Assembly (NCBI GenBank): GCA_025058175.1
Contig: JANXED010000001.1
Coordinates: 304,321-368,320, forward strand
From: Candidatus Calditenuaceae archaeon
GTDB lineage: Archaea; Thermoproteota; Nitrososphaeria_A; Caldarchaeales; Calditenuaceae
Direction of reading: 5' to 3'
DNA: 64,000 bases
The translations under genes and the position numbers were made by a program. Positions 3,517 to 23,827 of this stretch are shown piece after piece. How positions within the stretch are numbered: the stretch's first letter is position 1; the number at the start of each line of letters is the position of its first letter. The notes under the pieces are model-generated. The model saw only the letters and a program-made list of their open reading frames with translations, was not told the DNA's origin and searched no databases.

Positions 3517-4395
3517 ATGGAGAGGCCTCCCTGGCTGAAGGTAGTCCTGCCCCACGGCCCTGTCTATGAAAGGGTGAGGGAGGTCGTCAGGAGGCACGGG
3601 CTCCACACGGTCTGTCAGTCCGCGATCTGCCCCAACGTCGGGGAGTGCTGGGGCTCGGGGACCGCCACGTTCATGATCCTCGGGGACGTCTGCACCAGGG
3701 GTTGCAGGTTCTGCGCGGTCACCCACGGCAACCCGAGGGGGTCGGTGGACCTCACGGAGCCCGAGAGGGTCGCGGCCGCGGTCTCCGAGCTAGGCCTCAG
3801 CTACGTCGTCATCACCTCGGTCTGCAGGGACGACCTCCCCGATGGGGGAGCGTCGGTCTTCGCGGAGACCGTGAGGGCGGTCAAGCGGAGGAACCCCGGC
3901 TCCCTGGTCGAGGTCCTGATTCCTGACTTCGAGGGCGAGAGGCGCGCGATCGAGGAGGTGGTGAGGGCGGGGCCGGACGTCGTCGGTCACAACGTCGAGA
4001 CCGTGAGGAGGCTCACGCCGGTGGTCAGGGACAGGAGGGCCTCCTACGAGAGGTCGCTCGCGGTCCTCAGGACGGTCAAGGAGGTCGACCCGAGGATGAT
4101 CACGAAGTCCTCGATGATGCTGGGGCTCGGCGAGACCGACGAGGAGGTCGTCGAGACGCTGAGGGACCTGAGGGCCGTTGGCGTCGACGTCGTGACGTTG
4201 GGTCAGTACCTGAGGCCGCTCGACTCGCCGCTTTACCTCCCGGTCGTCGAGTACGTGAGGCCCGAGAGGTTCAGAACGCTTGAGGAGGTCGCCTACCGGA
4301 TGGGCTTCCTCTACGTCGCCTCCGGGCCGCTCGTGAGGAGCTCCTACAGGGCCGCCGAGGCCTTCGTCGCGTCCCTGGTGAGGGGCGTTGCGTGA
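3517..4395 (+). CDS. lipA: Lipoyl synthase (radical SAM)
   Basis: Radical SAM enzyme of 292 residues that inserts two sulfurs into a protein-bound octanoyl chain. Both iron-sulfur sites are present: the auxiliary cluster CX4CX5C (Cys33, 38, 44) and the radical SAM CX3CX2C (Cys59, 63, 66). The C-terminal RSSYRA motif supplies the serine ligand of the auxiliary cluster. The ATG at 3517 lies about 26 nt after a TTAT box. It is followed directly by lipB, whose TTG start overlaps its stop, so the two are co-translated. Acceptor proteins such as GcvH or E2 are not in the window. Confidence 0.95.
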   Translation: MERPPWLKVVLPHGPVYERVREVVRRHGLHTVCQSAICPNVGECWGSGTATFMILGDVCTRGCRFCAVTHGNPRGSVDLTEPERVAAAVSELGLSYVVITSVCRDDLPDGGASVFAETVRAVKRRNPGSLVEVLIPDFEGERRAIEEVVRAGPDVVGHNVETVRRLTPVVRDRRASYERSLAVLRTVKEVDPRMITKSSMMLGLGETDEEVVETLRDLRAVGVDVVTLGQYLRPLDSPLYLPVVEYVRPERFRTLEEVAYRMGFLYVASGPLVRSSYRAAEAFVASLVRGVA

Positions 4396-5140
4396 GGCCA
4401 AGAGACTGCTCTTCTTCTGCGATCTCGGGAGGACCTCATATGACGACTGCCACCGTCTGATGCTGGGGCTGGTAGGCCTCAGGGCGAGGGGGTGCGTCGG
4501 GGACGTCGTACTCATCACCGAGCACGAGCACGTCTACACGCTCGGGAGGCACGCGAGGCCCGACCAGGTCTTTAACGACGCCGTTCCGGTGAGGACCGTC
4601 GAGAGGGCCGGAGGTCCCACCTACCACGGTCCAGGTCAGCTCGTCGCTTACCCGGTGATCAGGCTCGCGGACTGGGGGCTGGGACCCGCGGACCTCGTCA
4701 GGGCCCTAGAGGCCTCGGTGGTCTCGGTGCTCGGGGAGCTGGGGATCCGGTCGGAGCCCGGGAGCCCGTCGGGGAGGCCGGGCGTCTGGGTCGACGGCAG
4801 GAAGATCGCGTCTATTGGGATGGCGGTAAGGGACGGCGTCAGCTTCCACGGCGTCGCGCTCAACGTCTCAGCCGACCTCTCGATGTTCCGCGGGATCTCC
4901 CCCTGTGGTATGTCGCCTGACGTGATGACCTCGGTCGAGCGCGAGCTCGGCAAGCGCGTCGGCCTGGAGGCCGTCAAGCCGCTCTTCGTGAGGGAGTTCT
5001 CGGCGCTACTCGGCGCTGAACCCCTCGCGGCCCAGAGGAGGGAGCTCGAGTCCGGTGCGGTCTGGACGCTCCTCGCAGTAAGCCGGTCCCACGAGGGTCC
5101 GAGGCGCGTTCCGGCCCTGGACGATCGTCGTGAGAGGTAA
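4388..5140 (+). CDS. lipB: Octanoyl-[acyl carrier protein]-protein transferase
   Basis: Biotin/lipoate-ligase fold enzyme of 250 residues that moves an octanoyl group to a lipoyl domain. Its catalytic dyad is visible as Lys139 in DGRKIASIG and Cys173 in SPCGM. The family signature GGPTYHGPGQ is at 75-84 and FHGVALNV at 153-160. The TTG start is within the lipA stop region. LipB needs an octanoyl donor, usually acyl-ACP, which most archaea lack, so its true donor here is unclear. The tail after about residue 225 is poorly conserved. Confidence 0.92.
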   Translation: MREAKRLLFFCDLGRTSYDDCHRLMLGLVGLRARGCVGDVVLITEHEHVYTLGRHARPDQVFNDAVPVRTVERAGGPTYHGPGQLVAYPVIRLADWGLGPADLVRALEASVVSVLGELGIRSEPGSPSGRPGVWVDGRKIASIGMAVRDGVSFHGVALNVSADLSMFRGISPCGMSPDVMTSVERELGKRVGLEAVKPLFVREFSALLGAEPLAAQRRELESGAVWTLLAVSRSHEGPRRVPALDDRRER

Positions 5141-5174: not shown

Positions 5175-5187
5175 ACCGAATTATATT
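5175..5187 (+). promoter_or_regulatory. BRE/TATA promoter of the 5210 RNA
   Basis: An A-rich BRE-like stretch followed by TTATATT (5181-5187) is centred 26 nt before G5210, the first base of the long terminal helix described for the RNA below. This is the normal archaeal TATA-to-start distance. No start codon follows at a matching place on the plus strand. Confidence 0.55.
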
Positions 5188-5209: not shown

Positions 5210-5390
5210 GGGCGGGCCGGGAGAGGTGGTGCCCAGTTCGTGGGGGAAGCCTCGCGGGCTGGGTGCCTCGCTCGGCCCCGGAGGCCCGAAAGGGCTGCTG
5301 CGACCGGGCGGGGCACGGGGACGCTCTGCCCACCGGCGGCGACCGGGAAGGTGGGCGTGAGGACCTGCCCCACCGAAAGCCCGCCCGTCG
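5210..5390 (+). ncRNA. Structured RNA of unknown family
   Basis: A GC-rich stretch of about 180 nt with no convincing reading frame folds almost completely by eye. GGGCGGGC (5210-5217) pairs perfectly with GCCCGCCC (5379-5386), closing the molecule. Inside are nested helices 5218-5226/5266-5274, 5230-5236/5259-5265 and 5239-5245/5250-5256. A GAAA tetraloop hairpin follows at 5284-5295, then a helix 5311-5315/5327-5331 and a hairpin 5350-5356/5367-5374. A TATA box sits 26 nt upstream, and a pyrimidine run (5391-5399) follows the 3' end. I looked for the conserved RNase P blocks and the SRP helix 8 motif and found neither. It could be a very reduced RNase P RNA (type T), a divergent SRP RNA or a new RNA. 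Confidence 0.6.
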
Positions 5391-5401
5391 TTTCTCCTTG
5401 A

Positions 5402-7714
5402 TCAGAGTGTAACGCCCTTTGATCTCATCAGGGACCAGATGTAATCCGGTGTGACGGGCATTCTCTCGATCGCAATGTTTAGGTGGGAGAGGGCGTCCTC
5501 GACCGCGTTCACGACGGCCTGCGCGAACCCGATGGTCGCTGCCTCGCCCACGCCCTTCGCGCCCAGCGGGTTCGGTGCGGGCGTGACGGTCCTCTCCAGG
5601 ACGAACTCCGGGACCTCGCACGCGGTCGGAACGAGGTAGTCGGCGAGGCTCTCGGTGAGGAGGTTGCCCTCGGGGCCGTAGCGGACCTCCTCGAGGAGCG
5701 CTTGACCTAGGGCCTGGACCGCGCCCCCGACGACCTGGCCCTCGACGAGCATCGGGTTGACGACGTTGCCCGCGTCGTCGACGAGCACCGCCCTCTTCAC
5801 GTCCACCCGACCGGTCTCGGGATCGACTTCCACGACCGCGACGTGGGCCCCGAACGGGTACGTCAGCTTGGGGACGTGGTGAGCGTAGGCCTCGAGTCCC
5901 ACCTCCTCTCCGTCCGGCAGCTCCGACTCGTCGTAGGCGGCCTTCGCGACCTCCTCGAAGCCCACCGACCTCTCCGGGACCCCCTTCACGCTGAACCGGC
6001 CCCCGATGAGCTCCACGTCCTCCGGCCTCGCCTCGAGGAGGTGGGCGGCGATCCTCCGCATCTTCTCCGCTACCCGCTCGCACGCCGAGAGTATCGCTGA
6101 TCCTCCCGAGACCAGGGTCCAGCTGCCCGCGGTCCCGCCCCCGTACGGCGCGCTCTGGGTGTCGCCGAAGGACAGGCTCACGTCCTCGATCCCGATCCCG
6201 AAGTAGTCGGCCACGAGCTGCGCGAAGGCGGTCAGGTCACCTTGGCCGTGCGGCGAGGTGCTGGTGAAGACGGTCACCTTCCCGTCGGGCTCGACCCTGA
6301 CCTTCGCGGACTGCGAGGCAAAGTTGCAGACCTCGACGTAGGTCGAGATCCCAATCCCGATCAGCCTCCCCTCCTGCCTCGCCCACCTCTGCTCCTCCCT
6401 CCACTTCAGGTAATCGACGAGCTCCAGCGCCCTCCGTAGGGCCTTTTCGTAGTCGCCGCTGTCGTACTCGTGTCCTCCTACCGTCTTGTAGGGGAACTCG
6501 TCCCTCCGGATGAAGTTCCTGAGCCTCAGCTCCGCGGGATCGATCCCGAGCTCCCTCGCGAGCCTCTCGACGCTCCTCTCGATCAGGAACGAAGCCTCCG
6601 GCCTTCCAGCCCCCCTGTAGGGCGCGGTCGGGACCTTGTTGGTGAAGGCCCCGACGACCTTTCCCTCGAAGCCGGTGAGCTTGTAGACGCCTGGCACCAT
6701 CCCGAGCATCCCGGTGTAGACCGACTGGGTAAGGTGGTAGAAGTAGGCGCCGACGTCGCCGATCGCCTCAACCCTCACGCCCAGAAGCCTGCCGTCCGAC
6801 TTCGCGGCCAGCTCAACCCTCGCGATCAGGCCCCTCCCGTGCGTCGTCGAGGAGAGGTTCTCGCGCCTCGTCTCGACCCACTTCACCGGCCTGCCGAGCG
6901 CGACCGACGCCGCGGGGACCGCTACGTCCTCGGGGTAGTGGGGGATCTTCGACCCGAACGCGCCCCCGACGTCCGTGACCACGACCCTCACCCTGTTCTG
7001 CGGTATGCCGAGGGCCTCTGACGTCCACTCCCTCAGGGAGTGCGGGAACTGGTGCGACGCGTGAACCTCCAACTGGCCCGTCGAGGGGTCGTAGCTCGCG
7101 AGTATACCCCTGGGCTCGATCGGCGTCGCCGCGACCCTCTGGACGGTGTGTCTGTATCTCACCACTCTGTCCGCGGACCTGAAGGCCCCGTCCGGGTCGC
7201 CGCCGACCCTGGTATAAGTGAAGGCGACGTTGTCCCCGAACTCCTCGTGGACCAACGGCGATCCGGGCCTGAGGGCCTCTTCGGGGTCCACGACGGCCTG
7301 CAGGGGCTCGTAACCGACTTCGACGAGGGCCACTGCGTCGTAGGCCGCGTACCTGTCCTCGGCGACTACCATCGCGACCGGTTCGCCCACGTACCTGACC
7401 TTCCTCTCCGCGAGCGGTTTGACCGGCGGCACCTTAGAGTACTTGGGGTTCGCGTTCACGGCCAGCGGTCCGACCCTCGGGTTCAGGTCTGCGCCAGTGA
7501 AGACCGCGACTACCCCCTGGGCCTTCACGGCCCTGCTGACGTCGATCGACCTGATGACCGCGTGCGGGTACGCGCTCCTCACGAAGGCCGCGTGTAGGGT
7601 CCTGGGGAGCCAGAGGTCGTCGATGAAGCTGCCTCTGCCGATCAGGAGCTTCCGGTCCTCGATCCTAGGGACGGGCTTCCCGACGTAGCGAGCGGCAGCC
7701 AGCCTGATACTCAT
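5402..7714 (-). CDS. Molybdenum hydroxylase large subunit (CoxL/aldehyde oxidase-like)
   Basis: Protein of 770 residues of the xanthine dehydrogenase/aldehyde oxidase/CoxL family, which binds the molybdopterin cofactor. Visible motifs are GGAFGSK (about 250-256), YRGAGRPEA (366-374) and the catalytic Glu in GVGEAATIG near the C-terminus. The loop reads PYRGAGR, which is the form II-like type and not the AYXCSFR loop of true CO dehydrogenase, so an aldehyde or other small organic substrate is more likely than CO. The FAD (medium) and 2Fe-2S (small) subunits that normally accompany it are not nearby. It is last in a minus-strand run after tyrA and converges on the 5210 RNA. Confidence 0.9.
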   Translation of the reverse strand: MSIRLAAARYVGKPVPRIEDRKLLIGRGSFIDDLWLPRTLHAAFVRSAYPHAVIRSIDVSRAVKAQGVVAVFTGADLNPRVGPLAVNANPKYSKVPPVKPLAERKVRYVGEPVAMVVAEDRYAAYDAVALVEVGYEPLQAVVDPEEALRPGSPLVHEEFGDNVAFTYTRVGGDPDGAFRSADRVVRYRHTVQRVAATPIEPRGILASYDPSTGQLEVHASHQFPHSLREWTSEALGIPQNRVRVVVTDVGGAFGSKIPHYPEDVAVPAASVALGRPVKWVETRRENLSSTTHGRGLIARVELAAKSDGRLLGVRVEAIGDVGAYFYHLTQSVYTGMLGMVPGVYKLTGFEGKVVGAFTNKVPTAPYRGAGRPEASFLIERSVERLARELGIDPAELRLRNFIRRDEFPYKTVGGHEYDSGDYEKALRRALELVDYLKWREEQRWARQEGRLIGIGISTYVEVCNFASQSAKVRVEPDGKVTVFTSTSPHGQGDLTAFAQLVADYFGIGIEDVSLSFGDTQSAPYGGGTAGSWTLVSGGSAILSACERVAEKMRRIAAHLLEARPEDVELIGGRFSVKGVPERSVGFEEVAKAAYDESELPDGEEVGLEAYAHHVPKLTYPFGAHVAVVEVDPETGRVDVKRAVLVDDAGNVVNPMLVEGQVVGGAVQALGQALLEEVRYGPEGNLLTESLADYLVPTACEVPEFVLERTVTPAPNPLGAKGVGEAATIGFAQAVVNAVEDALSHLNIAIERMPVTPDYIWSLMRSKGVTL

Positions 7715-23742: not shown

Positions 23743-23827
23743 GCGGGGGTAGCCAAGCCTGGTCAAAGGCGCAGGGCTCAGGGCCCTGTCCCGTAGGGGT
23801 TCGTGGGTTCGAATCCCACCCCCCGCA
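23743..23827 (+). tRNA. tRNA-Leu (CAG)
   Basis: An 85-nt class II tRNA. Acceptor GCGGGGG pairs with CCCCCGC, the D arm begins with GCCAAGCCTGG, the anticodon stem CAGGG/CCCTG encloses loop CTCAGGG (anticodon CAG), a long variable arm (TCCCGTAGGGGTTC) marks it as Leu, and the T arm is GTGGGTTCGAATCCCAC. The discriminator base is A, as required for Leu. CCA is not encoded. A T-rich run follows the gene. No intron is seen. Confidence 0.97.

Follow-up and report, generated by a model that had tools for sequence, protein, structure and literature searches.

A pseudoknotted RNA family kept in one order of Archaea and its candidate PD-(D/E)XK-type protein partner

The window, that is, the whole stretch of DNA analyzed here (64,000 nucleotides (nt) of contig JANXED010000001.1, assembly GCA_025058175.1, from a Candidatus Calditenuaceae archaeon), carries the locus of a structured RNA gene at 5210-5387 on the plus strand, its ends being set at the closing helix. 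Covariance models, a sequence pattern and synteny placed this RNA in 28 of the 44 genomes of one archaeal order. Comparison of the sequences leaves us with very little doubt that they form an RNA family whose fold, with a pseudoknot, is kept by compensatory change across genera. In 24 of the 28 genomes, the gene of an uncharacterized protein with a predicted, nuclease-like PD-(D/E)XK fold lies convergent to the RNA. Tentatively, and at somewhat short of an even chance, we propose that the RNA has its own promoter and is the trans-acting RNA component of a complex with this protein. The order is that of the genome collection used; NCBI puts only Candidatus Calditenuis (g1), the genus of the window, in Caldarchaeales. 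Candidatus Terraquivivens is genus g6 of this collection.

Secondary structure of the RNA

A first-pass annotation, made from the letters of the window alone, had described a GC-rich structured RNA at 5210-5390. The features that it listed are present in the sequence, including the GAAA tetraloop (5288-5291), and the homologues and covariation described below bear the RNA out. The single-sequence fold of the element (-120.6 kcal/mol, z -2.96) was equalled by 1 of 200 shuffles, and that of the reverse strand (z -1.60) by 13 of 200. This is better than chance and is not decisive, so the reality of the RNA rests on its relatives, through homologues and covariation. Chance folding of a GC-rich gap would fit a z of merely about -3, and is hardly credible against covariation that exceeds shuffles and slides and against model matches outside the training sets.

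The features of the element are listed in Table 1. The 8-base-pair (bp) terminal helix of the first-pass annotation, here P1, covaries, and its two strands differ together from genus to genus: the window has GGGCGGGC/GCCCGCCC, Terraquivivens GCGUCGUC/GACGACGC and g4 GGGGCGCC/GGCGCCCC. All 8 pairs form in 25 of the 27 sequences of alignment A12; G002 has one mismatch and G027 has seven pairs. Over P1 and P2 together, 97.5% of the cells in the 27 sequences are paired, compared with 34-53% in slid controls, and 65 cells are double changes versus 15.7+-3.0 after shuffling (score 0.589 vs 0.174). An alignment of 13 sequences covers 79 pairs, 54 of which change on both sides. It contains 152 double-change cells against 52+-6 in shuffles, with all five measures attained by 0 of 500 shuffles, and every one of its nine helices has pairs changed on both sides. 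Because P4 and P5 are out of register in the 27-sequence alignment, RNAalifold recovered only 21 pairs from it, which make up P1, parts of P2 and P3, and a doubtful stem. A covarying helix set across genera is thus what a comparison with relatives, the check proposed in the first-pass annotation, has returned.

The most conserved letters lie in the internal loop J1/2 and in the tip of P3, which reads GGGG-N4-CC in most members, with g4 and G042 deviating. A K-turn in J1/2 was weighed by eye and neither adopted nor dismissed, as one key position varies.

Table 1. Features of the RNA locus in the window (window positions)
Feature	Position	Strand	Evidence
BRE-like ACCGAA (5175-5180) and TATA box TTATAT (5181-5186)	5175..5186	+	sequence; recurs before most homologues
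Structured RNA gene, whole element	5210..5387	+	R1 and R2 model matches, folds, covariation
P1, 5' strand, GGGCGGGC (pairs with 5379-5386)	5210..5217	+	99.5% of cells paired in 27 sequences; 6 of 8 pairs double-changed
J1/2, 5' side, most conserved internal loop, mostly [C/A]GGNANA	5218..5224	+	invariant or near-invariant columns, alignment A12
P2, 5' strand (pairs with 5370-5374)	5225..5229	+	fold and covariation
P3 hairpin, conserved tip GGGG-GAAG-CCTC, loop 5246-5249	5232..5263	+	fold, conservation; helices 3 and 4 of the 13-sequence set
P4 arm, tip CCC-GAAA-GGG at 5285-5294	5264..5315	+	fold; helices 5 and 7 of the 13-sequence set
Pseudoknot, 5' strand, CCCGG in P4 internal loop (pairs with 5343-5347)	5277..5281	+	helix-swap test; helix 6 of the 13-sequence set
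P5 arm, upper stem 5328-5334 with 5350-5356	5316..5369	+	fold; helices 8 and 9 of the 13-sequence set
Pseudoknot, 3' strand, CCGGG in P5 apical loop	5343..5347	+	helix-swap test; covariation
P2, 3' strand	5370..5374	+	fold and covariation
J1/2, 3' side, GAAA (mostly GARN)	5375..5378	+	conserved columns
P1, 3' strand, GCCCGCCC	5379..5386	+	covariation
Pyrimidine run, possible terminator	5391..5399	+	sequence; T-rich stretches 3' of most homologues

A pseudoknot, absent from the first-pass annotation, pairs the bases that immediately precede the tip stem of P4 with the apical loop of P5. Its strands differ between genera: CCCGG/CCGGG in the window, CCAG/CUGG in G001, CUCCG/CGGAG in three genomes of the Terraquivivens genus, CGUGAGC/GCUCACG in four g12 genomes and CACGAC/GUCGUG in G024. 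Native strands form a helix of 6.8 bp on average compared with 4.65 for cross-genus swaps (5.4 vs 3.4 with Watson-Crick pairs only). Helices of at least 5 bp are formed by 24 of 27 native pairs of strands versus 53% of the swaps when G-U is allowed, and by 20 of 27 versus 9% when only Watson-Crick pairs count. The native sum was not attained by any of 2000 one-per-genus derangements, and in the 13-sequence set 5 of the 7 pseudoknot pairs change on both sides.

Distribution of the family

In a blastn search the element was found in two of the three genus-mates (89% and 77% identical where aligned), with the fold kept; matches in G014 and G006 lie inside protein genes and were taken as chance. 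Model R1, built from 3 sequences of the genus, found 5 of 6 genomes of g6 (E 1e-5 to 9e-4). Model R2, built from 11 sequences, found nine genomes that it had not been trained on, from g10, g12 and g4 (E 1e-6 to 6e-15), its additions being g10, g12 and G010 of g4 and, in a scan of the phylum, also G042 and G043. The sequence pattern matched 11 of 398 genomes of the phylum, all of them in g1, g6 and g13, and the reversed pattern matched none. Six members were found only by inspection beside the neighbouring nuclease-like gene: a scan for the motif and closing helix there gave four more g4 genomes and G031, and the member of G027 was spotted by eye. Where a model search gave a significant match, it was the only one in that genome.

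The RNA was not found outside the order by R2 over the 398 phylum genomes, with the best 5 candidates per genome scored. This absence is provisional, as at least eight known members (G007-G011, G031, G033 and G034) escaped the same scan. In a named contig collection, 9 of 18 pattern matches were bacterial and R1 scored none above 14 bits; the single R1 overlap with a matched bacterial place had 8.7 bits (E 7.5). No viral contig matched, and one R1 match at E 0.93 (L030) was treated as chance. Model R3 found nothing in 24 genomes without a match, a scan that shows little without a known positive, its strong match to G027 being to a training sequence and so no independent control.

The neighbouring protein

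The protein encoded by the convergent gene has about 220-270 amino acids as called, and none of the four examples scanned had a Pfam family above cut-off. Four residues, E51, D78, E91 and E93 (E-D-ExE), are invariant across the 43 rows of its alignment. The structure model has a pLDDT of 93.1, and its best structural matches include XisH (2okf/2inb), AF1548 (1y88), Hjc (4tkd) and EndoMS (5gke), all of which we take to be PD-(D/E)XK proteins. These matches are of moderate strength, with weak Foldseek and middling VIA scores. Taken together, the model suggests a PD-(D/E)XK fold, and the protein is predicted to be nuclease-like. It belongs to a family found widely in Thermoproteota (36 of 61 genomes sampled; 206 database proteins). 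Being so widespread, the protein appears from its sequence distribution to be older than the RNA, unless the RNA was lost elsewhere.

Among the 44 genomes of the order, 27 have both RNA and nuclease-like gene, one has the RNA only (G042), two have the gene only (G012 and G015) and 14 have neither, several of these being incomplete bins. When the six members found beside the gene are left out, the RNA is adjacent to the gene in 18 of 22 genomes and is accompanied by it in 21 of 22. The protein often occurs without the RNA, the RNA almost never without the protein, an asymmetry which suggests that the RNA serves the protein and not the reverse. G026 (96% complete) is instructive: it has htrA and an Lrp-like gene in place as in G034; the nuclease-like gene between them is a short remnant with stop codons (positions 2110-2540 of that locus), and no RNA was found at the site where congeners carry it. 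In G027 the gene and the RNA both follow the RNase P RNA gene, and G014, G017 and G029, of the same genus, have neither beside RNase P. The absence from G006 is probably an assembly gap, because its PCNA-like gene, which stands beside the cassette in congeners, matches over the first 122 residues only.

Unlike the convergent gene, the neighbour on the other side of the RNA varies between genera: it is a dehydrogenase in g4, 16S rRNA in three g12/g13 genomes, presumably an ACR3-like transporter in g6 and, as we read them, Lrp-like genes in three g10 genomes. Beside the nuclease-like gene there is what we take to be a PCNA-like gene in g4 and a ribosomal protein S2-like gene in G010. In the three g12/g13 genomes the RNA and the 16S rRNA are transcribed divergently from opposite strands, with the 5' end of the 16S rRNA gene some 300-425 nt upstream of the RNA; the remaining g12/g13 loci scanned, some of them short, do not have this arrangement.

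The convergent orientation raises the alternative that the RNA regulates the nuclease mRNA through an antisense overlap of the 3' ends. In eight genomes of g10, g12 and g13 the stop codon of the nuclease-like gene, which is on the opposite strand, indeed falls within the RNA gene, between +162 and +188 of an RNA that is 206-216 nt long. The overlap is absent, however, in G010 of g4 and in five g6 genomes, g1 has no such neighbour, and selection acts on every helix, beyond mere complementarity to the neighbour. We regard this alternative as improbable.

Promoter-like sequence and genomic context

The TATA box TTATAT sits 24-29 nt upstream of 5210, in agreement with the distance of 26 nt given in the first-pass annotation, and is preceded by a sequence like the B recognition element (BRE). 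A CGAAA-type element and an AT-rich box, read by eye, lie about 25-36 nt before P1 in most homologues, for example GCAAACGTTTATATAGG in G011 and GTGAAACGTATAAATC in g6. This recurrence backs the promoter claimed earlier, and the RNA is likely made from its own, putative promoter. The pyrimidine run at the 3' end, also noticed in the first pass, has its counterpart in T-rich stretches directly past P1 in most homologues (by eye).

In the window the RNA occupies the gap between lipB and an oxidase gene where it had been placed, bounded by the lipB stop (5140) and the end of the convergent gene (5402). Upstream and on the same strand as the RNA are lipA (3517-4395) and lipB (4388-5140), and the gene that converges on it encodes a glyceraldehyde/CO dehydrogenase-type large subunit (5402-7714, minus strand). 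The sole Rfam match in the window at gathering score is a tRNA-Leu (CAG) at 23743-23827.

Possible function of the RNA

We propose that the RNA, transcribed from its own promoter, would act in trans by binding the neighbouring PD-(D/E)XK-type protein. The pseudoknot would join the P4 arm to the P5 arm, the protein may bind at J1/2 and at the P3 tip, and binding might restrain or place the nuclease, the RNA serving for control or as a scaffold. Control or scaffolding is preferred over guiding because no variable guide-like segment was seen and because of the asymmetry of occurrence. The partnership with the nuclease is possible, at a confidence slightly lower than that given above to the proposal of a trans-acting RNA component. 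We consider it rather unlikely, as a more specific reading, that the pseudoknotted RNA turns a PD-(D/E)XK enzyme on, off or towards a target, which would be an undescribed type of ribonucleoprotein (RNP) nuclease.

Several observations weigh against the proposal. Two of the five measures for P1 and P2 were not above shuffles (double-change pairs, 7 vs 6.0; pair types, 19 vs 18.4). Helices of clamp loaders, which are not nucleases, match residues 1-63 of the neighbour protein as well or better. The promoter-like sequence is weaker in G042 and G001. Calditenuis has both RNA and nuclease-like gene, but apart, and the RNA of G042 is well folded (80.8% of the model pairs, z -4.3) with no nuclease-like gene beside it. 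In G042 the gene is missing between the RNA and a methyltransferase-like gene.

The last two cases would also suit an RNP RNA with a housekeeping role in the order, unrelated to the nuclease, whose shared neighbourhood is inherited synteny; the strict fold and the single significant match per genome in model searches agree with this. Such an RNA would be expected in any near-complete genome, and yet it was not found in G014 (99% complete) or G017 (97%) with R1, R2 or R3, nor in G026, these absences being provisional because the first stage of the model searches was capped. We hold the housekeeping explanation to be doubtful, and a little less probable than the partnership with the nuclease.

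A ribozyme or a metabolite-sensing RNA could also have a compact junction whose arms are linked by a pseudoknot, and a conserved internal loop such as J1/2. No Rfam ribozyme or riboswitch reached its cut-off, and a riboswitch acting in cis is unlikely because P1 closes the ends and no common gene lies downstream on the strand of the RNA. This explanation is very improbable, slightly more so than antisense regulation. Because the family has a candidate protein partner, the role of the RNA can be tested directly.

Comparison with known systems

With the gathering scores of Rfam 15 as the match criterion, no family matched this RNA in the window or at the other loci scanned; over 18 loci of the family, rRNA and RNase P were marked and this RNA never was. 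Permissive scans of the element and two homologues gave only matches far below cut-off. The RNA is not described in the open-access papers searched, a set outside which most subscription papers lie. Together with the covariation across genera, this upholds the view of the first-pass annotation that the RNA fits no family, and it is near certain that it constitutes a new one, a pseudoknotted family outside Rfam kept across several families of one archaeal order.

The suggestion, also made in the first pass, of a reduced RNase P RNA has not stood. Size, GC content and the GAAA loop are reminiscent of RNase P or signal recognition particle (SRP) RNA, and archaeal RNase P RNA (RF00373) is likewise a GC-rich structured RNA, whose features include a closing helix and a pseudoknot. 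Its model nevertheless finds no match here, and a separate archaeal RNase P match is present at another place in 23 of the 28 RNA-bearing genomes. The genus-mates G001-G003 have an RNase P match elsewhere; the window's own genome (57% complete) has no RNase P match. Archaeal SRP RNA (RF01857) is similar in being a structured RNA with a gene of its own and with loops that contact each other. Its model also has no match at this RNA, and separate SRP matches occur in 27 of the 28 genomes. That of the window's genome (G000; C48:53112-53435) has 80.7 bits against a cut-off of 96.5, those of G001 and G038 are under the cut-off as well, and G002 likewise has a separate match. With both families matched elsewhere in the same or sister genomes, there is next to no chance that this is a reduced or odd form of either.

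Archaeal H/ACA guide RNAs resemble the family as small RNAs of several hairpins. No known H/ACA family matched; the only weak hit, Pab19 (RF02794), reached in one homologue 15.2 bits (E 4.6), far under its cut-off of 55, whereas the present RNA has one closed multi-arm fold with a pseudoknot. No ACA box was seen by eye near the 3' end, where no formal scan was made.

As for the protein, its predicted fold is that of XisH, AF1548, Hjc and EndoMS, from which it differs in having no Pfam family at cut-off. To our knowledge no enzyme of these types has an RNA part. If the partnership is true, it would add one to a nuclease-like family without an assigned role that occurs widely in Thermoproteota.
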